Positions 1-10,483 of a stretch of DNA of 37,922 bases are shown one piece after another; positions within the stretch are counted from its first letter, which is position 1, and every line of letters starts with the position of its first letter. The notes under the pieces are model-generated. The model worked only from the letters and a program-made list of their open reading frames with translations. It was not told the origin of the DNA and did not search any database. Both the position numbers and the translations under genes were made by a program. The stretch comes from a virus: the IMG/VR virus record IMGVR_UViG_3300034109_000088, positions 1 to 37,922 of that record; one strand, given 5' to 3'.

Positions 1-127
1 GTAAGCCTTTTCCCATACATGCAATCGGCGCAGTTCGTCGGCGGCTTCTCCGCATAGACCCGTGTGGCTGAATTGCACGTCAAGTTCTTCTAGCGCATCA
101 GCCAGCACTAAGGCTTTGGGTTGTGGG
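1..127. repeat. Terminal direct repeat, copy 1 (circular assembly overlap)
   Basis: Bases 1-127 are identical to 37796-37922. A length of exactly 127 equals a common maximum k-mer size in short-read assemblers, so this is most simply the overlap of a circular contig, not a biological terminal repeat. An open gene crosses the junction in frame, which supports closing the circle. A real short terminal repeat of the packaged DNA cannot be excluded from sequence alone. Confidence 0.93.
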
Positions 128-132
128 TTCAT
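1..132 (-). CDS. Small hypothetical protein, N-terminal part (gene crosses the circle junction)
   Basis: The gene starts at ATG 132-130, which overlaps the stop of the upstream gene as ATGA. It reads off the left edge and continues at 37795 down to a TGA at 37750-37748, giving 59 residues on the closed circle. The protein is helical and charged, with one Cys-Gly-Glu-Ala segment and a run LREKNGGGA at the end. Similar small proteins are common in Burkholderiales phages and prophages, but no function is known to me. It is translationally coupled in a chain of ATGA overlaps with the genes on both sides. Base composition is visibly richer in G+C than the neighbouring early genes. Confidence 0.7.
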   Translation of the reverse strand, partial: MNPQPKALVLADALEELDVQFSHTGLCGEAADELRRLHVWEKAY

Positions 133-377
133 GTGTTCTTCTCCTTAAAAGCCTGCTCAAGTACTCTCGCTACATCTAGCCAACCACCACCCTCAAGCAC
201 GTAATCGATCGCTTCCCAAACTTCGTGATCCGTAAGACTGACCCATTCACGATCAGGCGCAGACAACCTGGCATTCAAAGCATTGATTGCTTCTCCAATC
301 TGGTTAGTAGTCCAGTGCTTTGTATTGGCTAGGAAGAGTGCATCCCTAGTCATGGTCATTAACTCTCTGTCAGTCAT
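129..377 (-). CDS. Small hypothetical early protein (82 aa)
   Basis: The ATG overlaps the stop of the upstream gene by one base (TAATG), with AGGG about eight bases upstream. The product is soluble and mostly helical, with an MTDRELM start and an acidic WEAIDYVLEGGGWLDVARVLEQ stretch. No domain, membrane segment or metal site is recognisable. It sits in the leftward early operon between a basic 96-residue protein and the GC-rich small genes at the circle junction. It is probably an accessory early gene, perhaps a host-takeover factor, but only position supports that. Confidence 0.65.
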   Translation of the reverse strand: MTDRELMTMTRDALFLANTKHWTTNQIGEAINALNARLSAPDREWVSLTDHEVWEAIDYVLEGGGWLDVARVLEQAFKEKNT

Positions 378-667
378 TACTTGATCCCTAAGTTAAAAGG
401 ATTATGCCAACAGATCCCAGTTGTATCCTTCGTGACATAACAACCTAAAGTGTATATGATCTTCTTCTGTCTGTCACCATAGATGTAAATATCCCTATCA
501 ACCGTATAATTATCAACAAGCTTCTGCATTGCATTCAGTAAGGCATTCTTACCCTTAGCAGGAAATGCTGTCATCAGATCCTCTAACGAGCATGTACCAC
601 CATTAGAGTGCATAAACAGCACATACGGTGAAGGCTTACGCTTCCTAGGTTGTATCTTCTTCTTCAT
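377..667 (-). CDS. Small basic hypothetical protein (96 aa), possible winged-helix
   Basis: The ATG overlaps the TGA of the preceding gene (ATGA). The N-terminus is strongly basic (MKKKIQPRKRKPSPY). A middle part with SLEDLMTAFP, NALLNAMQKLVDN and a beta-like DIYIYGDRQKKIIYTLG is compatible with a small helix-turn-helix or winged-helix fold. That is a fold guess from residue pattern only. A nucleic-acid-binding role fits the basic tail and early-operon position. No catalytic residues are apparent. Confidence 0.65.
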   Translation of the reverse strand: MKKKIQPRKRKPSPYVLFMHSNGGTCSLEDLMTAFPAKGKNALLNAMQKLVDNYTVDRDIYIYGDRQKKIIYTLGCYVTKDTTGICWHNPFNLGIK

Positions 668-864
668 ACATTGAACCCTTTAGCATTCAAAGCCTTTGTT
701 AACTGACGCATCATAAAGTAAAAACCATACTCCGAACATAAGCGAACAAATCCACTCAGTACGGCTTCAATCTTAACATCTTCATGGTAATCATCCAACT
801 CTGCCTGTGTTGGCTCTGAAGGCTTCATAGCCTCTTCAGGTAGAAAATCATCATCAGGGTACAT
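664..864 (-). CDS. Small acidic hypothetical protein (66 aa)
   Basis: The start ATG at 864 has a good ribosome binding site (AAAGGA, about seven bases upstream). The N-terminal half is acidic (MYPDDDFLPEEAMKPSEP). The second half is an amphipathic helix ending in LTKALNAKGFNV. It is the first gene downstream of the inverted-repeat region 894-984 and the leftward promoter at 989-1017, so it probably begins a separately controlled transcript. No family is recognised. Confidence 0.65.
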   Translation of the reverse strand: MYPDDDFLPEEAMKPSEPTQAELDDYHEDVKIEAVLSGFVRLCSEYGFYFMMRQLTKALNAKGFNV

Positions 865-893
865 TGTATTATCCTTTAAGGGTACATTGTCTA

Positions 894-984
894 CTATATA
901 GGCTATGTATACATAGTATATACATAGAATATTATACTAAGTATATATACTAAGTATAGTACATAGTATACATAGCCTATATAG
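894..984. repeat. Perfect 19-bp inverted repeat enclosing tandem 13-mers
   Basis: The arms at 894-912 (CTATATAGGCTATGTATAC) and 966-984 are exact reverse complements. The left arm overlaps a perfect 14-bp palindrome at 903-916 (CTATGTATACATAG). Between the arms lie two head-to-tail copies of TATACTAAGTATA (933-945 and 946-958), each nearly palindromic. The whole stretch is almost pure A+T and lies in the gap between genes 664-864 and 1021-1215, just downstream of a leftward promoter. It could be an operator, a cruciform or a transcript hairpin. Confidence 0.85.
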
Positions 985-988
985 ATTT

Positions 989-1017
989 AGGGTATCAGAG
1001 AAAACTAAAGTTGTCAA
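989..1017 (-). promoter_or_regulatory. Putative sigma70 promoter, leftward
   Basis: On the minus strand there is a perfect TTGACA (-35, plus-strand 1012-1017), a 17-base spacer and TACCCT (-10, 989-994) directly preceded by TGA, an extended -10 element. The -10 hexamer itself is weak, so strength would rely on the -35 and extended element. Transcription would begin near 982 and run through the inverted repeat 894-984 into the gene starting at 864. Confidence 0.5.
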
Positions 1018-1020
1018 TAC

Positions 1021-1215
1021 TTAGTCCTCTGACTTCTTACGTTCGCTAACAATCTCATCATCGTCGTGCATCAGGGATACATTGCCTACAGCGCAGATCT
1101 CATCTCGGACATACTTAAAACAATCATTACATAAGTCTAAGTATTGTCTTGTTCGAACACTACGTCTAGAGGCTTCATAGTCGCTAAGCACTTCATTGCA
1201 AGAAAGGCATCTCAT
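1021..1215 (-). CDS. Small zinc-ribbon protein (64 aa)
   Basis: Two CxxC pairs (Cys3/Cys6 and Cys29/Cys32) flank a basic linker, a typical treble-clef or zinc-ribbon arrangement. The motif MRCLSCNEVLSDYEA is familiar from small phage proteins. The tail is acidic then charged (HDDDEIVSERKKSED). The start ATG overlaps the stop of the upstream 57-residue gene as ATGA, so translation is coupled. Zinc binding is supported by the cysteines. Function is unknown, possibly binding of nucleic acid or a host protein. Confidence 0.75.
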   Translation of the reverse strand: MRCLSCNEVLSDYEASRRSVRTRQYLDLCNDCFKYVRDEICAVGNVSLMHDDDEIVSERKKSED

Positions 1216-1385
1216 TTTCCATCATCCTCCATTCTATCCAACAACATCATCAGTTTAGGGTATAGATCCTCTTTAACATCTTCAGCATGACTTACCTCCT
1301 CCCATTGACCCCATGATGCTGCTACACTGGAGTCAATCATCGCCTCAATCAAGGCTAACATTATCTGTACTGTCTCTTTAGTCAT
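1212..1385 (-). CDS. Small acidic hypothetical protein (57 aa)
   Basis: Start ATG 1385-1383 has a GAGGG ribosome binding site in TAGAGGGTATTTTATG. The reading frame runs MTKETVQIML to RMEDDGK and stops with TGA overlapping the next ATG (ATGA). It is an amphipathic helical protein with a strongly acidic second half (WGQWEEVSHAEDVKEDLYP). No family is recognised. The tight coupling and ribosome binding site support it as real. Direct repeats at 1403-1435 lie just upstream. Confidence 0.65.
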   Translation of the reverse strand: MTKETVQIMLALIEAMIDSSVAASWGQWEEVSHAEDVKEDLYPKLMMLLDRMEDDGK

Positions 1386-1402
1386 AAAATACCCTCTAGA
1401 AT

Positions 1403-1435
1403 CGATTAAAACAGGTCTACAAGCGATTAAAACAG
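1403..1435. repeat. Pair of 12-bp direct repeats upstream of an early gene
   Basis: CGATTAAAACAG occurs at 1403-1414 and again at 1424-1435. The copies are 21 bp apart start to start, close to two helical turns. The pair fills the 66-bp gap between the gene ending at 1452 and the gene starting at 1385. Two copies on one helix face are typical of an operator, but no cognate regulator is identifiable. Confidence 0.5.
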
Positions 1436-1451
1436 TCTTGGTGCTATCACC

Positions 1452-1652
1452 CTACATTAGAGCCTCTTCGATGCCTTGTAGAGCCTCTAATCGCTTCTGC
1501 TTTTCTGTGGTTTTCTTCAGTGCTTTAGGGTTAACCCAAGTATAGCTAGGAAAAGGCCATCGAGGATCGCCAGCATATCGTATACAGACTAAGCCATCAG
1601 CATCTGGACCTTGGACAATCTCACATGGTTGATCATTGAATGTAAGACTCAT
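1452..1652 (-). CDS. Small hypothetical protein (66 aa)
   Basis: The ATG overlaps the upstream TGA (ATGA). The N-terminal part is beta-rich (MSLTFNDQPCEIV, GLVCIRYAGDPRWPFPSYTWVNP), resembling a small SH3-like barrel. The C-terminal part is a charged helix (KKTTEKQKRLEALQGIEEALM). No family is recognised. It is an early-operon accessory gene. Confidence 0.65.
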   Translation of the reverse strand: MSLTFNDQPCEIVQGPDADGLVCIRYAGDPRWPFPSYTWVNPKALKKTTEKQKRLEALQGIEEALM

Positions 1653-1879
1653 TTGGTAATCCTGTATTGTTTCCTAAATTCTATGGTGTCTAAGTCGGTA
1701 AAGTTTTCCCTATAATGCTCTGCTAACTCAACATCAGATAGGTTATTGAATCCACCTTCAGAGAGAAAGCGAACAATCTCATCATAGACCTCTGGGAACT
1801 TAACAGAGGCAACAGCATAATCTAATTCTCTCTTAGTACAATCATAGAGTATGTCTTCTTTCTTCAGTATGGTTGTCAT
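1649..1879 (-). CDS. Small hypothetical protein (76 aa)
   Basis: The frame is open upstream to 1906, but AGGAG lies just before the ATG at 1879-1877 (MTTILKKEDILYDC), so that start is chosen. The protein is acidic and helical with AEHYRENFTDLDTIEFRKQYRITK at its end. It overlaps the next gene by four bases. No recognised domain. The preceding 55-residue gene ends five bases upstream. Confidence 0.65.
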   Translation of the reverse strand: MTTILKKEDILYDCTKRELDYAVASVKFPEVYDEIVRFLSEGGFNNLSDVELAEHYRENFTDLDTIEFRKQYRITK

Positions 1880-1883
1880 AGGA

Positions 1884-2051
1884 TTAATCTCCTGATAGGT
1901 CAACAATAGGGTTAATAACGTATTCTGTCAATTCTGAAGATTCGGCATAGTCTTCTGCCTTCGCCAGTGTATCGAACCTATCTAGGTGGGTTAAACCAGA
2001 ATACTCTGGATAGCGATAAGTTAACAGATAACCGACAATCTTAAATTCCAT
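1884..2051 (-). CDS. Small hypothetical protein (55 aa)
   Basis: ATG 2051-2049 is preceded by GAGG six bases upstream and lies just after the stop of the 69-residue gene. The product runs MEFKIVGYLLTYRYPEYSG to PIVDLSGD: a short beta-like start, a FDTLAKAEDYAESSE helix and a beta-like end. This pattern resembles small alpha/beta phage proteins, without a named family. Spacing to both neighbours is under ten bases, consistent with one operon. Confidence 0.6.
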   Translation of the reverse strand: MEFKIVGYLLTYRYPEYSGLTHLDRFDTLAKAEDYAESSELTEYVINPIVDLSGD

Positions 2052-2058
2052 GATAGCC

Positions 2059-2268
2059 TCATTTTATAACGGTAGCATCTTCTGGTGGTTTAATGTTATC
2101 TGGATTTTGAACTACAAATCGATTAGAAATCCTGATAGCAGTTGCACAGCTGCGGATTGATTCAATGAACTCGTCCATTTCGTAACGATTAGCAAATGCT
2201 CTATACCACCAAACGCCACCAGGACGCTCATAATTTGTCGGAAGGAAAGCAAAAAACACTTGTTCCAT
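2059..2268 (-). CDS. Small hypothetical protein (69 aa)
   Basis: The ATG at 2268 has an AGGGG ribosome binding site in CTATAGGGGTTTAACATG. The sequence has an aromatic core (GGVWWYRAFANRYEMDEFIESIR) and a beta-strand-like IRISNRFVVQNP. No metal site, membrane segment or known motif is seen. It lies downstream of a 28-residue membrane peptide in the early operon. Confidence 0.65.
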   Translation of the reverse strand: MEQVFFAFLPTNYERPGGVWWYRAFANRYEMDEFIESIRSCATAIRISNRFVVQNPDNIKPPEDATVIK

Positions 2269-2277
2269 GTTAAACCC

Positions 2278-2364
2278 CTATAGTGAGAAGTAAATCATTG
2301 CAGCATACAATGCACCGAACAGCGCACCGCCTAAGACTAAGACAACATCATTAGACTTTGACAT
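2278..2364 (-). CDS. 28-residue single-pass membrane peptide
   Basis: ATG 2364-2362 starts two bases after the stop of the GP88-like gene, with AAAGG eight bases upstream. The product begins MSKSNDVVLVLGG and ends in MIYFSL before a TAG. After a short polar start it is one uninterrupted hydrophobic helix with small-residue spacing (G, G, G, A, A), typical of a membrane-spanning miniprotein. Function is unknown; it might modulate a host membrane protein. Its shortness lowers confidence, but it fills an otherwise empty 98-bp gap in a compact operon. Confidence 0.5.
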   Translation of the reverse strand: MSKSNDVVLVLGGALFGALYAAMIYFSL

Positions 2365-2366
2365 GA

Positions 2367-3014
2367 TTAAGCCTTTGCAAGTTTAAGCTTGATAACCTTG
2401 GACATTTTAACGCCATGTGCTACGTAACCGATAACTGGGATTGATTTGTCCCAGCATGCTCTACAACCCTTGCACTTGCCTTCATGCTGATATGCATGGC
2501 ACACGCTAACATTAGCATTGTCATATGATTGTGCAATAGTGCTCGACCATGGCGCATCAAGTACTTCGCCGATAACGGAATCAGACGAACGACGAACAAC
2601 AACATTCGGCAGTGCATCCATTTGATCAATGATTGATTGATACTTAGGAAACTTATACATCCTAGTAGGTAACCAGTGTTTGACCCATGGTGTACGTTTC
2701 ATAACTTCAAGCATTTTCTCAGCAAGCTTGATTGTGTACATATCGCCAGAGTCGAACCAGCGGAAGTATCTATCTGAATCTAAGGCTTGCACCATGTCAT
2801 CGACCCAATCATCACGCTGCCAGTCTTGTTTGTTATGCTCACGTGGAGCTTTAACATTAGGGTGTAAGTAGTAGCCAGTGGTTGCATAGCAGCCCTTGCA
2901 GGCATCAACTAATTCGCCAGTGTAAACGTTGATACTACCTGAACATGTGTCTAGTGCCTGTAAACTCCATGAGCGTATCCCGTCAAGCTTGCTAGTGATT
3001 GATAATTTGAGCAT
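2367..3014 (-). CDS. GP88-like cysteine-rich phage protein (215 aa)
   Basis: The frame is open to 3041, but AAGGA sits seven bases before ATG 3014-3012, giving MLKLSITSKLDGIRSWSL, the usual start of the 'gene product 88' phage family. Cysteines cluster in two places: Cys24, Cys39 and Cys42 (DTCSG, ACKGCYA), and a later VCHAYQ..GKCKGCRAC group. A conserved-looking YFRWFDSGDMYT lies between. The clustered cysteines suggest a metal or iron-sulfur site. Some phage proteins with a similar SGD pattern are radical-SAM-like, but the classical CxxxCxxC is absent, so the chemistry is unknown. It has its own candidate promoter at 3043-3071. Confidence 0.75.
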   Translation of the reverse strand: MLKLSITSKLDGIRSWSLQALDTCSGSINVYTGELVDACKGCYATTGYYLHPNVKAPREHNKQDWQRDDWVDDMVQALDSDRYFRWFDSGDMYTIKLAEKMLEVMKRTPWVKHWLPTRMYKFPKYQSIIDQMDALPNVVVRRSSDSVIGEVLDAPWSSTIAQSYDNANVSVCHAYQHEGKCKGCRACWDKSIPVIGYVAHGVKMSKVIKLKLAKA

Positions 3015-3042
3015 GGTTCTATCCTTATAGAATGGACTCATC

Positions 3043-3071
3043 AGTATAGTATTAAACTATAGACCCTACAA
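3043..3071 (-). promoter_or_regulatory. Putative sigma70 promoter for the GP88-like gene
   Basis: Minus-strand TTGTAG (-35, 3066-3071), 17-base spacer, TATACT (-10, 3043-3048, five of six to consensus). A 6-bp inverted repeat, TATAGT-ATTAA-ACTATA (3045-3061), overlaps the -10 and spacer and could be an operator. The -35 is weak. The next start codon is at 3014. Confidence 0.4.
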
Positions 3072-3098
3072 TTGGCAGGGTTTCGTCCTTGGTATTGA

Positions 3099-3284
3099 TT
3101 AGCACAGGTGATTTACACCTAAACGCTTGGCAGCCTCGTATGCCTCTCTAGTTTTTGCTTCAATTAGTTTTTGACCATGAGCATTGGCAAATACACTGCC
3201 AAGGTATCGATCCTCTTGTTTAAGGCAATACTCATAATGAGCCACAGCTGCCTTTTGAGCTTTAGTTAGTTTTTGCTTAATCAT
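3099..3284 (-). CDS. Small hypothetical early protein (61 aa), first gene of leftward arm
   Basis: The start ATG at 3284 has a strong AGGAGA ribosome binding site, and the leftward promoter 3320-3348 lies directly upstream. The protein is basic and almost entirely helical (MIKQKLTKAQKAAVAHYEYCLKQ, AKTREAYEAAKRLGVNHLC). As the first gene after the strongest leftward promoter it is probably made very early. No family is recognised. First genes of leftward arms are often host-takeover proteins, which is inference only. Confidence 0.65.
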   Translation of the reverse strand: MIKQKLTKAQKAAVAHYEYCLKQEDRYLGSVFANAHGQKLIEAKTREAYEAAKRLGVNHLC

Positions 3285-3319
3285 TCTACTTTCTCCTGGT
3301 GTTTTGTTTCGATGTATCC

Positions 3320-3348
3320 ATTGTGCTTATGTATTTTTACCTTGTCAA
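3320..3348 (-). promoter_or_regulatory. Putative sigma70 promoter of the leftward arm
   Basis: Minus-strand TTGACA (-35, 3343-3348) is perfect, the spacer is 17 bases, and CACAAT (-10, 3320-3325) matches four of six positions. Transcription would start about 30 bases upstream of the ATG at 3284. The 13-mer TTTCGATGTATCC is repeated on either side of the promoter and may be a regulator site. Confidence 0.6.
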
Positions 3349-3428
3349 TGTGGTTTTCGATGTATCCGACGAACGGCAGACAATCCAGGATGAACGGTAG
3401 TGTTGTTTGAACACAACAGTTTAAGCTG

Positions 3429-3444
3429 TGTTTCACGTGGAACC
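3429..3444. promoter_or_regulatory. parS-like site (predicted host ParB binding site)
   Basis: TGTTTCACGTGGAACC contains a complete GTTNCACGTGNAAC core (3430-3443), the chromosomal ParB-binding parS core shared across most bacteria. It matches the common 16-mer TGTTTCACGTGAAACA at 14 of 16 positions. All 12 fixed core bases agree. No parA or parB gene was recognised in the phage, so any function would rely on the host protein. Binding is predicted, not shown. Confidence 0.6.
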
Positions 3445-3446
3445 AG

Positions 3447-3541
3447 TGCAGACTGTGCAGGCTTTCTAGGCTTTGAAGTCTGTTCAGGTATCTCTATAGG
3501 GTGCTACGCTGATACATCTCCCTACTGTGCAGACTGTGCAG
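3447..3541. repeat. Repeated TGCAGACTGTGCAG motif
   Basis: The 14-mer TGCAGACTGTGCAG occurs at 3447-3460 and 3528-3541. It contains CTGTGCAG, which also occurs at 3525-3532, and a related CTGTACAG follows at 3546-3553 inside the LexA-type box. The cluster lies between the parS-like site and the SOS box. It looks like a multi-copy protein-binding array, protein unknown. Confidence 0.55.
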
Positions 3542-3543
3542 TC

Positions 3544-3563
3544 TACTGTACAGATATACAGTG
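3544..3563. promoter_or_regulatory. Putative LexA/SOS box
   Basis: TACTGTACAGATATACAGTG matches the gamma/beta-proteobacterial LexA pattern CTGT-N8-ACAG exactly and the E. coli 20-mer consensus (TACTGTATATATATACAGTA) at 17 of 20 positions, including the AT-rich centre and outer TA. It is intergenic. No clear promoter overlaps it; a weak rightward TTGAAG-N16-TATAGG (3473-3500) lies about 45 bases upstream. It is predicted to bind host LexA. Confidence 0.5.
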
Positions 3564-3766
3564 CAGCCTTAATAGTAATGCATTCTCATTAGCATTTCAC
3601 ATTATGAAATCTCAATTAGCTATGCAGTGCTACTAGATATAGTGGTCAAACAAGGATAAAACACTATATGTAGTGGTTGTCAAACAGTAATGATTCTTAA
3701 TTGTACATTGCAGTGCAGCATAGGGGGAGGGGGTCTGGTTAGTTATGTAAATGTTGTGGTGCTACC

Positions 3767-3858
3767 TAGCCTTAAAAAAAGCTAAAATGAAAACATCAGC
3801 TTAGCCTTAAAAAAAGCTAAAATGAAAACATCAGCTTAGCCTTAAAAAAAGCTAAAAT
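3767..3858. repeat. AT-rich 35-bp tandem repeats (iteron-like, 2.6 copies)
   Basis: Units start at 3767, 3802 and 3837. The first two are identical 35-mers, and the third keeps 22 bases before diverging. Each unit contains a small inverted repeat, TTAGC/GCTAA (only TAGC on the left in the first copy), around CTTAAAAAAA. A-tracts phased at 35 bp (a little over three helical turns) would bend the DNA. Tandem AT-rich direct repeats between divergent arms are typical of replication origins or of operator arrays. Two perfect spacers with identical flanks do not make a CRISPR array. Confidence 0.85.
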
Positions 3859-4034
3859 AGAAGTCTCTAAAGCCTAGACAGTCTATTTAATAAAAGGTAA
3901 TAAAATCAATAGCTTAGTAATAAAGCCTCTGCGGAGCCTCTGACACCATGTAAATGGAGTCCCGCCATAGCCTTGTGTAATCTGTGCTGATGTTGGTACA
4001 GAACAACAATCTTGACTGAATAAGTAGAAATAAC

Positions 4035-4063
4035 TTGACAAATCTTAAAAAATATGCTATAAT
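4035..4063 (+). promoter_or_regulatory. Perfect consensus sigma70 promoter of the rightward arm
   Basis: TTGACA (4035-4040), a 17-base spacer and TATAAT (4058-4063) match the consensus at all 12 positions, with a TGC extended -10 directly upstream of TATAAT. Transcription would start near 4070 and give a leader of about 160 bases before the first ATG at 4231. It is the only strong promoter found for the virion genes and should be read by unmodified host RNA polymerase. Confidence 0.9.
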
Positions 4064-4230
4064 ATACCCTTCTATGTAGAAACGATGAACAGACGATGTA
4101 CAGACAATAAATAAAACTTACTTTATACTTACTACATACAATCTTCATACTGACTACATCGTATAGATACATAAAATTATATACACCCTAAAGTCCTGCT
4201 TTCAGCAGAGAAACTATATAGAGGGATCTG

Positions 4231-4725
4231 ATGTCAGAAATTAAAATTACTTCTCCTAATGAGGATTGTTCGCTACCTTCATCAGTCAGCCAGGATGTCT
4301 TGGCAGTCAATGAAGAGAAGAAAGTGCCTGCGAAAAAGAAGAGATCTAGAGGTCGTCCTAAGCAGGAAGAAGTACAAAAGTATATAAAAAGAGAGAAAAG
4401 AGGAAGACCACCAGGAGAAGCAGCAAGGATTAAAGAGTTCACTGCTTCGTTGTTGCTGACACACTCTAATGCGATTATCAGAAAGATAGTACATAAAGCA
4501 TTAGATGATAATGATAAGGATCAGATTGCAGCCCTAAAGATGTGTATGGATAGAATGCTTCCAGTATCTTATTTTGAGGATAAAGGACAAGCATCAGGGG
4601 CTAAAGCAATCACTATTAATATTACTGGAGTACAAGAGTCTCCAGTAGAAATGATTCAGCATGAACCAGTTGACGTAGAGACTACGTTAATTGATTACAA
4701 GGAAGAAGATGGATCTACAAGTTAA
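4231..4725 (+). CDS. Putative terminase small subunit (164 aa)
   Basis: It lies directly before the large terminase, the usual place of the DNA-recognition subunit. The N-terminal third is basic with two AT-hook-like cores (RGRPK near 40 and RGRPP near 57), suited to minor-groove binding. The middle (KALDDNDKDQIAALKMCMDRMLPVSYFEDKG) is a pattern seen in phage genes next to terminases. The C-terminus is acidic. GAGGG precedes the ATG. Its end overlaps the large subunit gene by 17 bases. The role is inferred from position and DNA-binding features; sequence similarity to studied small terminases is not evident to me. Confidence 0.65.
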   Translation: MSEIKITSPNEDCSLPSSVSQDVLAVNEEKKVPAKKKRSRGRPKQEEVQKYIKREKRGRPPGEAARIKEFTASLLLTHSNAIIRKIVHKALDDNDKDQIAALKMCMDRMLPVSYFEDKGQASGAKAITINITGVQESPVEMIQHEPVDVETTLIDYKEEDGSTS

Positions 4726-5962
4726 GCTTCTTCCATGGCAGCAAGAGGTGTTTAAAGACCCTGCAAGGTTTAAGATCATTGCTGCTGGTAGACGTACAGG
4801 TAAATCTAGGTTAGCTGCGTGGACGTTGATTATAGAGGCACTACAGACTGAGAAGGGTCATGTCTGGTATGTAGCTCCTACGCAGGGACAAGCTAGAGAT
4901 ATTATGTGGACTACGCTACTGGAGCTAGGACATTCAGTCATTAAAGGTAGTCATGTAAATAATATGCAGATTACCTTAGTCAATGGTGCGATGATATCGC
5001 TAAAGGGTGCTGATAGACCAGAGACTATGCGTGGTGTTAGTTTGAAGTACTTAGTGATGGATGAGTACGCAGACATGAAACCACAGGTGTTCGAACAAAT
5101 CCTTAGACCTGCTTTAGCTGATCAAAAGGGTAGATCAATGTTCATTGGGACACCAATGGGTAGAAACCACTTCTATGAACTGTATAGGTTAGGTGATAGT
5201 GGTAGAGATAAAGATTACAAAGCATGGCACTTTACTAGCTTTGATAATCCTTTGCTAGATCCAGTAGAGATTGAAGCTGCTAGAGGTTCAATGTCTAGCT
5301 TTGCTTTTAGACAGGAGTTCATGGCTTCGTTTGAAGCTGCACAGTCCGAGATATTTAAGGAAGAATGGATTAAAGTCAACGAGGAGGAACCAGATGAAGG
5401 TAACTACTTTATGGCGGTGGACTTGTGTGGTTTTAGCGATTCTTCGCAGACGAATAAGACGAAGAATTCAAAGCTGGATGAAACAGCGATAGCTATTGTT
5501 AAGGTTAATACAAAAGGGTGGTGGGTTGCTGACATTCTACACGGTAGGTGGGATGTCCGAGAAACAGCAGTAAGGATTCTCAAAGCAGCTAAAGATTACC
5601 ACGTATCTTGTGTCGGTATAGAGAAAGGTGCGCTGAAGAATGCAGTGATGCCTTATATGCACGATCTAATGCGTAGGAATGGTTTTTATCCCCGTATTGA
5701 AGAACTAACACACGGTAATAAGAAGAAAGCTGATAGGATTGTTTGGTCACTACAGGGTCGCTTTGAACACGGCAGGATTGTTTTAAACGAAGGGGATTGG
5801 AATAATAAGTTCATTGATCAACTTATGCAGTTCCCTGACAGTAAAACTCATGATGATTTGATTGATGCGCTAAGCTATATTGATCAGATACAAACTGCAA
5901 ACTGGAATCAAAACCTAGACGAAGACGAGTTTGAAGTTTTAGACCACGTAGCAGGCTATTAG
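4709..5962 (+). CDS. Terminase large subunit (417 aa)
   Basis: This is the packaging motor that cuts concatemers and pumps DNA into the prohead through the portal. From the chosen start (ATG 4709, GGAAG just upstream; the frame is open from 4691), the ATPase has a Walker A AGRRTGKS at 26-33, Walker B LVMDEY with Asp118-Glu119, and the coupling motif IGTPMGR near 147-152. The nuclease domain has the first acidic residue in FMAVDLCG (Asp238) and a final HDDLIDALSYI. The length is normal for compact terminases. It is followed 11 bases later by the portal gene. Confidence 0.95.
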   Translation: MDLQVKLLPWQQEVFKDPARFKIIAAGRRTGKSRLAAWTLIIEALQTEKGHVWYVAPTQGQARDIMWTTLLELGHSVIKGSHVNNMQITLVNGAMISLKGADRPETMRGVSLKYLVMDEYADMKPQVFEQILRPALADQKGRSMFIGTPMGRNHFYELYRLGDSGRDKDYKAWHFTSFDNPLLDPVEIEAARGSMSSFAFRQEFMASFEAAQSEIFKEEWIKVNEEEPDEGNYFMAVDLCGFSDSSQTNKTKNSKLDETAIAIVKVNTKGWWVADILHGRWDVRETAVRILKAAKDYHVSCVGIEKGALKNAVMPYMHDLMRRNGFYPRIEELTHGNKKKADRIVWSLQGRFEHGRIVLNEGDWNNKFIDQLMQFPDSKTHDDLIDALSYIDQIQTANWNQNLDEDEFEVLDHVAGY

Positions 5963-5973
5963 GATACACAAAT

Positions 5974-7974
5974 ATGAAATTTGAATCCGAGATCACCCCT
6001 CAGAATGCTCTTGTAGCATTTGTGATGGATCGGTGTAATAACTGGAGAAACTATAGGGATGAGAATTTCCTTCCTCGTTGGGAAGAGTATGAGCGTTTAT
6101 GGCGTGGAATCTGGGCTGATGAAGATAAAACCAGACAGTCAGAGCGTTCAAAGATTATTTCACCAGCACTCCAGCAAGCTGTAGATAACAAACAAGCTGA
6201 CCTTGAAGAAGCAGTGTTCGCTAAAGGACAGTTCTTTGACATCAGTGATGATACTGAAGATCAAAACAAACAAGACATTGAACTTCTTCGAGTACGTTTA
6301 ACTGAAGATTTTAAGAAAGACAAGGTTAGAAAAGCCATTGGTAACACGATGACTTTGGCTGAAATATACGGCACAGGTATCGGTGAGCTGATTGTTAAGC
6401 AAAAGAAAGAATTAGCACCAGCAACACAACCTTCTGCTAATCCTGGACTGTCTATGATTGGTGTACAGGCTAATAATCGTATATCTGTTCAGTTAAAACC
6501 AATCAATCCTAAGAATTTTCTTATTGATCCTAATGCAACAAGTATTGATGATGCAATGGGATGTGCTATTGAAGAGTATGTTGGTCGTCATATCGTCATT
6601 AAAGGTATGGAAGATGGTGTTTATAAAGCAGTTTCACTAGGTGATGCTGCTGTAGATACCGACTTAGAGCCTGATCAAGACCTTACATACTATCAAAATG
6701 ATAAGATACTACTTTTAAGGTACTATGGTTTAGTACCACGTAAGCTTTTAGACAATCCTGATGATACTGAGTATGAGAATGATGAACTTTACTCAGATAT
6801 GGTTGAGGCTTTAGTGGTTGTTGCTAACGGAGAAGCTCTTCTAAAGGCTGAAGAGAACCCGTTTATGATGCAAGACCGTCCTGTTGTTGCTTATCAAGCT
6901 GATACTATCCCTGGTAGGTTCTGGGGAAGAGGTACAGCAGAGAAAGCATATAACATGCAAAAGGCTGTAGATGCTCAAATTAGGAGTCATGTGGACTCTT
7001 TAGGGCTTACAACAGCTCCTATGATGGCTGTGGACGCTACAAGGCTTCCTAGAGGTGCTAAATTTGAGATTAGACCAGGGAAAACCATCCTAACAAATGG
7101 TAATCCTAATGAAATCTTAGCTCCTTTTAAGTTTGGTAACACAGATCCTGCAAATCTACAGTCTGCTCAGGTGTTTGAGCGTATGATGTTGCAGGCTACA
7201 GGTACTTTAGACACTGCAAACCTACCTGGACAGGTTTCTGGTGGTGAAGCAGCCACTGCAGGGCTTGCAATGGCAGTATCTGGACTGATTAAGAAGAATA
7301 AGAGATCGTTAGTTAACTTCCAAGAAGATTTCTTGATTCCTTTCGTACAAAAAGCTGCATGGAGGTATATGCAGTTTGCACCGCAGCGTTATCCTGTACA
7401 AGATTTTGAGTTTGTTGCTACAGGTACGATGGGTATGATTGCTAGAGAGTTCGAACAAGCACAGATTCTAGCTCTTTTATCTACACTTGGTCCGAATAGT
7501 CCTATTGTACCGTTACTGCTTCAGGGTGTTATTGAGACATCATCGTTACCAAACAAAGAAACATTGCTTGGTCAGTTAGCTCAGATGTCACAACCTGATC
7601 CGCAACAGCAACAACTACAACAGCAAGCTGCTCAGCTTCAATTAGCGGATGCTGAGGCTTCTGTCCGAGAAAAGCAAGCAAAGGCTGCTAAGGACGCTGC
7701 AGAGGCTCAGAAGACCACTATAGAGACACAATTGCTTCCTGAAGAGACTCGTGCTAAAATAATGGCAGCAGTCTCTAAAAACCTACCACAACAAGCTGAT
7801 GCTGCTCAAGTAGAGTTTGATCGTCGTATAAAGATTGCTGAGTTAATGCTCAAAGAAGCTGATCTAGCAAACAATACAAAGATTGTAGAAATGCAGATGA
7901 GTAAAGCAGGAGTACTTCCTGGTGACGAAGACATGCTTAACGAACTACTTGATAAGTTGACCAACAATGGCTAA
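5974..7974 (+). CDS. Portal (head-tail connector) protein (666 aa)
   Basis: Its position after the terminase, its size and an N-terminal WRNYRDENFLPRWEEYERLWRG region fit large short-tailed-phage portals, the dodecameric ring through which DNA enters and leaves. The core has RPVVAYQADTIPGRFWGRGTAEK near 300-325. The end (about 540-620) is a long Gln/Ala-rich coiled coil, probably the barrel that protrudes into the head. AGGA lies six bases before the ATG. Its stop overlaps the start of the tail-fibre gene (ATGGCTAA). Confidence 0.9.
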   Translation: MKFESEITPQNALVAFVMDRCNNWRNYRDENFLPRWEEYERLWRGIWADEDKTRQSERSKIISPALQQAVDNKQADLEEAVFAKGQFFDISDDTEDQNKQDIELLRVRLTEDFKKDKVRKAIGNTMTLAEIYGTGIGELIVKQKKELAPATQPSANPGLSMIGVQANNRISVQLKPINPKNFLIDPNATSIDDAMGCAIEEYVGRHIVIKGMEDGVYKAVSLGDAAVDTDLEPDQDLTYYQNDKILLLRYYGLVPRKLLDNPDDTEYENDELYSDMVEALVVVANGEALLKAEENPFMMQDRPVVAYQADTIPGRFWGRGTAEKAYNMQKAVDAQIRSHVDSLGLTTAPMMAVDATRLPRGAKFEIRPGKTILTNGNPNEILAPFKFGNTDPANLQSAQVFERMMLQATGTLDTANLPGQVSGGEAATAGLAMAVSGLIKKNKRSLVNFQEDFLIPFVQKAAWRYMQFAPQRYPVQDFEFVATGTMGMIAREFEQAQILALLSTLGPNSPIVPLLLQGVIETSSLPNKETLLGQLAQMSQPDPQQQQLQQQAAQLQLADAEASVREKQAKAAKDAAEAQKTTIETQLLPEETRAKIMAAVSKNLPQQADAAQVEFDRRIKIAELMLKEADLANNTKIVEMQMSKAGVLPGDEDMLNELLDKLTNNG

Positions 7975-10483
7975 AGAACTTATTGATGCAGTAATGCAGG
8001 CTTCTTCACGAGATAAGAAACTTTTACTAAAAGAGTTGATTACTGGTCTTCGTGAAGAGAAACAAAAACAAGACTTGGAGGTATCAAAGACTAAATCTGA
8101 CTACATCGTACAGTCCTTTAAACAGATTGAAGAGCGTCTTACACAGAAATACAATGAGATCAAAGATCTTTCTACAAAGAAGGGAGATCCTGGTAAAAAT
8201 GGTAAAGATGGTCTTAACGGTAAAGATGGTAAGGATGGTAGAGACGGTGTAGATGGTCGTCCTGGTGTTGATGGAAGAGATGGCAAAGATGGTGTCGATG
8301 GTTCAGACGGTATCAGTGTAACCAACGTATACATTGACTTTGATGATAAGTTGGTTGTAGAGCTTTCTAACGGACAGCAGATTGATGCTGGTTATGTTAA
8401 TAGAGTTGCTAGTGATGCTGTTATTCAAATGTTCAAACAAGGACAGATGAGCATCACAGAGCTGCTACCAGATCAAACAGGGCATGGTGGTGAAGTTCTT
8501 TCCACAGACGGTGAAGGTAATCTGTCATGGGTTGCTGGTGGCGGTGGAGGAGGTGGTGGTGGTACAACAACTTATGCTGTAACCTTTAACAATAGTGGGA
8601 CAGGTGCTGCATCAGGTACAACCTTTAATGGTTCTGTAGCACGTACAATCAGCTATAACACGCTTGGTGCTCCTAGCATCACAGGTACAAATGCCACAGG
8701 TACTTGGAATATTGATATTCTAGGTAGTGCTGGTACAGTAACTAATGGTGTTTATACAACAGGAAGCTACAGCAATCCTTCATGGATTACAGCACTGGCT
8801 TGGAGTAAGATAACATCAACACCAACCACCATCAGTGGTTATGGCATCACTGATGCAGTTAGCACAGGAGGTAGCTATAGCAATCCTTCATGGATTACAT
8901 CATTAGCTGGTTCTAAGATTACAGGTGACATTAGCGGTAAAGCAGGATCAGCAACAAACATTGCTGGTGGTGATGCTAATAAAGTTCTGTATCAGACTAG
9001 TGCAAACACTACAGGCTTTATTGATGCACCCACTACAGCCAATACGTATTTGAAGTGGTCAGGATCATCATTTGGTTGGGATACTGTTGCTGCAGGCGGT
9101 GGTGGCACAACAACGAATGCTGTTACGTTTAACAATAGCGGCTCTGGAGCTGCTTCAGGAACAGACTTTGATGGTTCAGTAGCACGTACGATCAGTTACA
9201 ATACATTAGGTGCTGCTAATTCAGGTGCTAACACAAACATCACTAGTTTAGACAGTATTACAGGTGGTATTAGTTCTCCTGATTACATTCAGTTTGATAC
9301 AGCAGCAACTGTCACTGGAGCTGTTGGTAGGGTTTGGTATGACAGTGGTGATGGATCTCTGGTTACAAGACTCAAAGGTAACAACCTTGATCTTAATATC
9401 GGACAAGAAAACGTAGTTTTGTCTTATAATGGTTCTGGTGCAACTATTACTAAAGGATCTGTTGTTGCTGTTGCAGGTGCTCAAGGTCAAAGACCTAGTA
9501 TTGTATTAGCTGATGCAGACACTGAAGCATTGTCAGCACCTACACTAGGTATCGCTGCTGAAGACATTACTAACGGTGCAGAAGGCTTTGTAGCAACCTT
9601 TGGTGTTGTTCGTGGTATTGATACTAGTGCATTCACTGCAGGTGATGATGTTTACTTATCTCAAACAGCAGGACAATTTACTGCTACAAGACCATCAGCA
9701 CCAGCACATACGGTGTTTCTTGGTTGGGTTGTCAAAGTCAATGCTAGCAGCGGTGAGTTGTTTGTAAACATTAATAATGGCTGGGAACTTGACGAACTAC
9801 ATAACGTTAAGATTACTTCTGTAGCGAATAACGATATCCTTCAGTACGATTCAACTGGACCTTATTGGAAGAATATTACACCAGCGTCTGTAACAGGTAC
9901 TTGGGGTATCAGTATCACAGGTAATGCAGGCACAGTAACCAACGGTGTCTATACGACAGGATCTTATGCTAATCCGTCATGGATTACTTCGTTAGCTTGG
10001 TCAAAGATCAGCAGCACACCGACAACACTGAGTGGTTATGGTATTACTGACGGTGTAAGTACTGGTGGTAGCTACAGCAATCCAACATGGATCACTTCCA
10101 TTAGTGGTTCTATTGTATCTGGTAACATCACAGGCAATGCAGCTAACGTCACTGGTACAGTAGCAGTTGCTAATGGCGGTACTGGACAAACATCGTACAC
10201 TGATGGTCAACTACTAATTGGCAATACTGCTACAGGTGGTTTGTCTAAAGCTACTCTTACCGCAGGCTCTAACGTAACCATTACAAATGGTAATGGTACG
10301 ATTACAATTGCTGCTACTGGAGGCGGTGGTGGTTCTTCAACGATCCTAGAGAATGATCAAACCATATCATCTAACTATACAGTAACCTCTGCTAAGAATG
10401 GTCTTAGCGTTGGTCCTGTTACAATTAATACCGGAGTCTCTGTTACCGTTGGTACAGGTCAGAGATGGTTGGTTTTAGCTTAA
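7967..10483 (+). CDS. Tail fibre-like protein with collagen-like repeats (838 aa)
   Basis: The N-terminal 70 residues are a charged coiled coil. Residues 73-117 are fifteen uninterrupted Gly-X-Y triplets (GKDG, GRDG), a collagen-like trimeric shaft. A poly-Gly hinge of nine glycines follows near 190. The rest is beta-rich repeats; the blocks VTFNNSG..GSVARTISYNTLG and TTGSYSNPSWIT..GYGITD each occur twice. This fits a trimeric virion fibre that contacts the host. Residue divergence between repeats suggests internal duplication. It overlaps the portal gene by eight bases, so it may be translated with it. Receptor specificity cannot be read from sequence. Confidence 0.8.
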   Translation: MAKELIDAVMQASSRDKKLLLKELITGLREEKQKQDLEVSKTKSDYIVQSFKQIEERLTQKYNEIKDLSTKKGDPGKNGKDGLNGKDGKDGRDGVDGRPGVDGRDGKDGVDGSDGISVTNVYIDFDDKLVVELSNGQQIDAGYVNRVASDAVIQMFKQGQMSITELLPDQTGHGGEVLSTDGEGNLSWVAGGGGGGGGGTTTYAVTFNNSGTGAASGTTFNGSVARTISYNTLGAPSITGTNATGTWNIDILGSAGTVTNGVYTTGSYSNPSWITALAWSKITSTPTTISGYGITDAVSTGGSYSNPSWITSLAGSKITGDISGKAGSATNIAGGDANKVLYQTSANTTGFIDAPTTANTYLKWSGSSFGWDTVAAGGGGTTTNAVTFNNSGSGAASGTDFDGSVARTISYNTLGAANSGANTNITSLDSITGGISSPDYIQFDTAATVTGAVGRVWYDSGDGSLVTRLKGNNLDLNIGQENVVLSYNGSGATITKGSVVAVAGAQGQRPSIVLADADTEALSAPTLGIAAEDITNGAEGFVATFGVVRGIDTSAFTAGDDVYLSQTAGQFTATRPSAPAHTVFLGWVVKVNASSGELFVNINNGWELDELHNVKITSVANNDILQYDSTGPYWKNITPASVTGTWGISITGNAGTVTNGVYTTGSYANPSWITSLAWSKISSTPTTLSGYGITDGVSTGGSYSNPTWITSISGSIVSGNITGNAANVTGTVAVANGGTGQTSYTDGQLLIGNTATGGLSKATLTAGSNVTITNGNGTITIAATGGGGGSSTILENDQTISSNYTVTSAKNGLSVGPVTINTGVSVTVGTGQRWLVLA

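Follow-up and report, generated by a model that had tools for sequence, protein, structure and literature searches.

In this phage, the message for the leftward-transcribed replication genes may open with a 5'-terminal stem-loop that protects it, a reading that we hold tentatively, at a little under an even chance, and that builds on computed folds and on the leaders of its relatives. The window, the whole stretch of DNA analyzed here, is a complete IMG/VR virus record (IMGVR_UViG_3300034109_000088) of 37,922 bases. Genes for terminase, portal, capsid, tail, and endolysin are among those on the plus strand between about 4.2 and 27.4 kb, and the minus-strand genes include those for ribonucleotide reductase, thymidylate synthase, an exonuclease, a DNA polymerase, and a T7-like primase-helicase. 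In relatives (e.g., L010), the homologue of the first leftward gene is encoded on the same strand as the primase gene and upstream of it, suggesting that the leftward gene run continues past the ends of the window. No named phage matches the window at the DNA level; the closest named-phage primases, at ~50%, are those of Pelagibacter phage HTVC115P and of Roseobacter phages, and bacterial genomes scanned by pattern for the primase yielded no relative. The features of the two leaders are as follows.

664-864, minus strand: first gene of the leftward transcript, 66 aa, function unassigned, with kin in 68 viral loci
872-877, minus strand: Shine-Dalgarno-like AAAGGA outside the hairpin, from the sequence
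894-984, minus strand: 5'-leader hairpin, an imperfect 91-bp palindrome, from symmetry and fold computation
894-912, minus strand: 3' arm of the outer 19-bp stem, from complementarity
903-916, no strand assigned: 14-bp palindrome CTATGTATACATAG, straddling the inner end of the 3' arm, from the sequence
933-958, no strand assigned: tandem TATACTAAGTATA pair within the loop; L014 has its reverse complement (2 base differences), and part of it is missing from L004 and L007
966-984, minus strand: 5' arm of the outer 19-bp stem, beginning at the predicted +1, from complementarity and the distance from the -10
989-1017, minus strand: leftward sigma70-type promoter, with -35 TTGACA at 1012-1017, a 17-nt spacer with TG, and -10 TACCCT at 989-994
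4035-4063, plus strand: rightward promoter before the terminase and structural genes, TTGACA-17-TATAAT with an extended -10
4069-4079, plus strand: 5'-end segment of the rightward leader, CTTCTATGTAG, predicted to pair with 4214-4224
4214-4224, plus strand: 3' partner in the rightward leader, CTATATAGAGG, overlapping the Shine-Dalgarno sequence of the first rightward gene (ATG 4231)

The perfect 19-bp inverted repeat named in the original prediction is real: arms 894-912 and 966-984 are complementary at 19 of 19 positions, making this the sole inverted repeat in the whole window with perfect arms of at least 11 bp and a spacer of up to 100. The longest arm was 13 in dinucleotide shuffles of the window (n = 30) and 11 in shuffles of 600-1300 (n = 500), and an arm of 19 was reached in 1 of 2000 shuffles of the 91 bp alone, which are 71% identical to their own reverse complement. 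The two tandem copies of TATACTAAGTATA are also present as described (933-945 and 946-958). The 14-bp palindrome exists too, running past the arm end at 912 instead of being confined to the left arm, and "almost all A+T" was too strong a description of an element with 77% A+T versus 57% for the window. A known RNA family was rejected as the identity of the hairpin, since Rfam gave no match above gathering score in the window; the 42 matches up to E 10 at 780-1080 were mostly to microRNA-hairpin models, far below their cut-offs. An intrinsic terminator or attenuator was rejected as well, with no terminator-like site at 894-984 and two in 1-5000, both near 3.07 kb. We did not recognize a report of this hairpin element in the open PMC literature.

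The element was rightly placed directly downstream of a leftward promoter and within the leader of gene 664-864: it begins 4 nt past the predicted -10, so the leftward message should open with the hairpin. Judged from the usual distance between -10 and start, transcription would begin in the first three bases of the arm. The promoter matches the consensus (TTGACA, 17, extended -10 TGATACCCT), which gives a predicted start only, and it is missing from the list of a stricter promoter scan because TACCCT fits the -10 consensus poorly. A host sigma70-type RNA polymerase would thus begin near position 982, which is two to three nucleotides into the outer arm, and the first nucleotides of the message would base-pair with a segment about 80 nt downstream, leaving the ribosome-binding site (predicted pairing 0.43), which lies beyond the 894-984 stem, outside. 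If RNA, and not DNA, is the acting form, as presumed here, pairing at the 5' end would slow the decay that depends on that end (pyrophosphate removal, RNase E-type entry) and so keep the long leftward message alive. According to PMC3997798, RppH prefers single-stranded 5' ends and RNase E relies on such ends too, a preference that explains why structured 5' ends stabilize mRNA. With its predicted start within a long stem and its ribosome site beyond that stem, the leftward leader has an anatomy that matches this stabilization.

The upstream regions of all 68 loci with a relative of gene 664-864 were compared. The contig ends inside the leader in L036, L038, and L053, and the leaders of the remaining loci are of two types: type A, found in the window, and type B, which matches A over the promoter and the opening 16 bases (CTATATAGGCTATGTA; some leaders carry single changes there) and then diverges. 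Two loci, L020 and L027, have a type A leader before a B-like first gene (73% and 71% identity), a mix that would reflect recombination between leader and gene. All 13 distinct clade-A leaders fold better than all 100 of their shuffles (z -5.3 to -8.5), as do 24 of 27 in clade B (z -1.1 to -8.5 over the 27), the exceptions being L055, L021, and L024, where 1, 3, and 15 shuffles are equally good. L028 escaped the leader pattern and was added later, giving 28 distinct B leaders and 41 in total with the 13 of A. An 82-nt fold of the window leader gave z -1.5 because the cut took off part of the 3' arm, and the full leader was used instead. In A and B leaders the stem, which reaches about 34 bp in L067, begins 3-5 nt past the -10, whereas the 17 loci with an A leader differ in the stretch between the 3' arm and the gene, which is 29 nt long in 11 loci, 72-74 nt in five, and 159 nt in one. 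This steady distance to the -10 and variable distance to the gene suggest that what anchors the hairpin is the start site and not the ribosome site.

Within these clades, pairing is conserved. The outer arms of clade A are almost invariant and therefore give little information on pairing. The tandem 13-mers form a perfect pair in just 2 of the 13 distinct clade-A leaders, those of the window and L014; the second copy contains AGAATA in the remaining 11, and part of the first is missing from L004 and L007. For clade B, 26 of the 28 distinct leaders were aligned, L041 and L022 being excluded because extra repeat copies shift their register. The outer 11-bp helix is paired in 99.7% of cells over these 26 distinct sequences, with four pairs varying: both sides of one pair are changed in L028 (U-A to C-G), and the other changes are U-G to C-G (L048), G-C to G-U (seven sequences), and C-G to U-G (L044). 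One outer pair is broken in L045. For the whole structure, the covariation score is reached by 2, the count of double-change pairs by 14, and that of further pair types by 429 of 500 shuffles, counts that, as the tool warns, are not probabilities. The inner register is weaker, its covariation score being matched by 38 of 500 shuffles, and the consensus structure proposed by RNAalifold itself contains zero pairs with a double change. The asymmetry between G-U and A-C was dropped as proof of RNA pairing, since independent events are too few.

The 5' end itself is predicted to be paired. Over the first 12 nt, mean pairing is 0.99 in the left leader of the window, 0.91 in its right leader, and 0.92 in the right leader of clade B, against 0.42-0.54 in shuffles, of which 0 of 100 reach the observed value in each case; when the 5' bases are kept and only the remaining sequence is shuffled, the counts become 0, 2, and 0 of 100. 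The left leader of the window thus combines a predicted paired 5' end with a ribosome site outside the stem, as expected of a 5'-terminal stem-loop. The rightward value for the window falls from 0.91 to 0.72 with 45 more nt folded, and a rightward start 9 nt past the -10 gives a pairing of 0.60, reached by 13 of 60 shuffles. Clade-B left leaders are 0.49-0.58 paired, like shuffles, from starts 3-5 nt past the -10, and 0.71 and 0.91 paired from starts 7 and 9 nt past it; for the early starts their 5' end is about half paired because a repeated unit lets two registers compete. Six other promoters served as controls; pairing was elevated at three of the four offsets for one of them and at a single offset for a second.

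The rightward leader shares the paired 5' end, in a different layout. The word CTATRTAG occurs in the window just at 894, 977, 4072, and 4214, that is, at both ends of the leftward and rightward leaders, and in longer stretches of 16 relatives it lies mostly at matching places, with a few extra sites. Ten of the 16 distinct rightward A/B leaders were folded, and all ten pair the 5' end CUUCUAUGUAG with CUAUAUAGAGG, which adjoins the first start codon, over 11 bp (overall fold z -1.8 to -2.7, n = 10). The pairing segments are invariant in 52 loci, found with a pattern that required both words and so dropped loci lacking either, and several of these loci come from the same contigs. Here the 3' partner overlaps the Shine-Dalgarno sequence (predicted pairing 0.78), so that the ribosome site is not outside the stem. 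Four clade-A loci (L073, L074, L079, and L083) have a different rightward promoter and 5' end, UCUACUAUGUAG, with the rest of the leader largely kept. L083 was read as sequence and excluded from folding; in the other three, UCUACUAUGUAG is predicted to pair with mid-leader CUACAUAG[A/U]AG, where other leaders differ. Their 5'-end pairing is 0.90, 0.90, and 0.99 versus 0.36-0.37 in shuffles, 0, 1, and 0 of 100 of which reach it, L073 and L074 being near-identical. A changed 5' end thus has a new predicted partner, suggesting that the constant is the paired 5' end and not the covered ribosome site.

Other details of these regions were observed along the way. The first rightward gene (4231-4725, 164 aa, in the position of the terminase small subunit) contains two RGRP motifs that by eye are AT-hook-like, and a tail-fibre-like gene (7967-10483) contains short TGGTAAAGA repeats at 8191-8257. 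A perfect 35-bp x 2.6 tandem repeat, TAGCCTTAAAAAAAGCTAAAATGAAAACATCAGCT, lies at 3767-3858, between the divergent operons and near the GC-skew turn; it is a possible replication origin. In two relatives (L080, 1254-3545; L109, 10001-12264), a frame that by eye resembles an HNH-type endonuclease directly follows a complete primase gene, and after it the final codons of the primase occur a second time, so it is perhaps a mobile gene that carried in its own copy of the gene end. The match length in L081 is the same as in L080, and an Rfam search of L080 and L109 gave zero matches.

The long hairpin is seen in clades A and B but does not extend to the wider group. In 15 more distant left leaders, folding is not clearly above that of shuffles (z from -1.8 to +1.0; for the best, L203, 10 of 200 shuffles are as good), and a general rule for the wider phage group was therefore rejected. 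Thirteen of the 15 precede a small protein, alike by eye, and L215 and L222 precede other genes; blastp against the 66-aa protein of the window gave E values of 0.002-0.026 for just 5 of the 17 tested. Orthology of the distant leaders is therefore no more than likely. Pairing of the 5' end is likewise not clearly in excess in the distant leaders analyzed for it (9 left, 8 right), where the fraction of shuffles at or above the observed value is 0.05-0.88, with L203 and the right leader of G016 borderline (5 of 100); the planned right leader of G023 is absent from this set, and distant rightward promoters were assigned to the terminase operon from position only. Conservation of symmetry in relatives, to which the original prediction had looked, is thus found in clades A and B, and the long symmetry is absent from more distant relatives. 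One of the latter, L187, has six tandem TCTTAAGTAG units 10 bp apart at 3633-3760, soon after a TTGACA-type promoter.

Conserved pairing could be kept by mutation instead of selection, and the loops speak to this. In clade B, the loop of L030 is the exact reverse complement of that of L019, with 7 differences within 17 bp. The 13-mers of the window are likewise the reverse complement of those in L014, and the 8-bp unit CTATTTAG/CTAAATAG is inverted too, yet each of these cases rests on just 2 base differences, so two point changes explain them equally well. The copy number of GGCTACTTA varies (L022, L041), and indels also reshape the interior of the hairpin. Loop inversion and copy change fit template switching and slippage at a hairpin: in PMC8604942, on yeast, arm homogenization and spacer inversion are products of template switching, and PMC8794818, on RNA genes, describes template switching as able to create and maintain RNA hairpins. 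Near-perfect symmetry alone is thus not proof of selection, and it was probably through template switching in replication that the palindrome was kept near-perfect and the clade-B loop flipped. The further step, that CTA/TAG-rich short repeats after the promoter made and kept a functionless inverted repeat by template switching at the fork, draws on the same inversions, copy changes, and published products, but we consider it unlikely, if the foremost competitor, because it accounts neither for the steady place of the fold at the start site, nor for the paired 5' end predicted in the rightward leader, which has no long palindrome, nor for the new partner of a changed 5' end there.

Among the three roles suggested at the outset (operator array, RNA element, and cruciform used as an origin), the RNA element is best supported. 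A dimeric regulator that recognized CTATRTAG-type palindromes at the +1 positions of the two main promoters would account for the confinement of that word to the leader ends, and CTATATAGGCTATGTA adjoins the leftward promoter in 67 of the 72 viral stretches that carry it. Total short-palindrome content in 19 left leaders exceeds that of shuffles (Fisher 4e-6, driven by the A/B rows, L122, and L203, four of the 19 being A/B and non-independent) and is not enriched on the right (0.22); at +1 itself, enrichment is weak in the same left leaders (Fisher 0.012, with the same non-independence) and gives Fisher 0.12 in 11 right leaders. However, the tandem 13-mers on which the operator idea partly rested are not conserved, site spacing is not consistently helical (76, 83, 85, and 116 on the left; 142-143 in A and 128-129 in B on the right), the left 3' arm of clade B lacks the palindrome with complementarity kept, and L028 has lost its 5' palindrome and has the matching 3' change. 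The family scans, which covered some of the genes, found no regulator gene among them, and we rate such an array as improbable to much the same degree as a functionless palindrome. Stems of 19 to ~34 bp are long enough to be RNase III substrates, so the long duplex might be cut to give a defined 5' end, but at the extreme 5' end there is nothing upstream to release, and the rightward helix, at 11 bp, is too short for RNase III; we give this processing site little credence. Hardly better placed is a T7-like origin or cruciform in which the promoter and the A+T-rich segment initiate DNA synthesis. For it stand the 77% A+T beside a promoter, the T7-like primase-helicase and polymerase genes, and the clade-B loop inversion, which suggests a DNA hairpin involved in replication errors. 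Against it, the GC skew turns near 3 kb and tracks gene direction, and the tandem repeat at 3767-3858 is an equally good candidate; for a secondary origin at 894-984, A+T richness and the promoter are the positive evidence. A search for PF00940 (phage-type RNA polymerase) gave no match, and a 14-genome control was also silent. The protective 5' stem-loop remains our preferred reading, held a little lower in view of how the rightward pairing shifts with the set-up of the fold and of the weak orthology of the distant leaders.

If this reading is true, a phage with host-type promoters relies on structure alone to shield its two main messages at their 5' ends. The 41 distinct leaders would then be a natural series in which slippage and inversion rebuild the hairpin and pairing is kept, and a test bed for RNA stems kept by selection versus replication errors copying arm onto arm. 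A far more speculative idea, to which we give very little weight, is that the ends of both operon leaders, built from the self-complementary word CUAURUAG, also pair in trans: the amount of replication mRNA would set the degree to which the terminase mRNA keeps its 5' end clamped on its own ribosome site, making a small RNA-based early-to-late timer without a protein regulator.

In ompA and papA mRNA, a stem stands at or beside the 5' end with the ribosome site outside. Such 5'-terminal stem-loops of E. coli ompA/papA mRNA were reportedly described by Emory, Bouvet and Belasco in 1992 and Bricker and Belasco in 1999. The leftward leader likewise has a stem at its 5' end and the ribosome site outside, but the phage hairpin is much longer, A+T-rich, fast-changing among near relatives, and predicted only. 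The T7 gene 10 leader is a phage mRNA that starts with a stem-loop, after a phage-polymerase promoter; the message here would also open with a stem-loop, whereas its promoter is of the host sigma70 type. The HK022 put antitermination RNA has hairpins right after early promoters in both directions, with conserved sequence. Predicted hairpins follow promoters in both directions here too, but the sequence is not conserved. As in the short inverted repeats of yeast (PMC8604942), the arms are near-perfect and, in clade B, the spacer is exactly inverted; yeast coding-sequence spacers there have 2-5 substitutions, versus 7 differences in 17 bp in the phage leader. A hairpin that protects the 5' end is a known bacterial trick, which this phage may use in an unusually long and fast-changing form.
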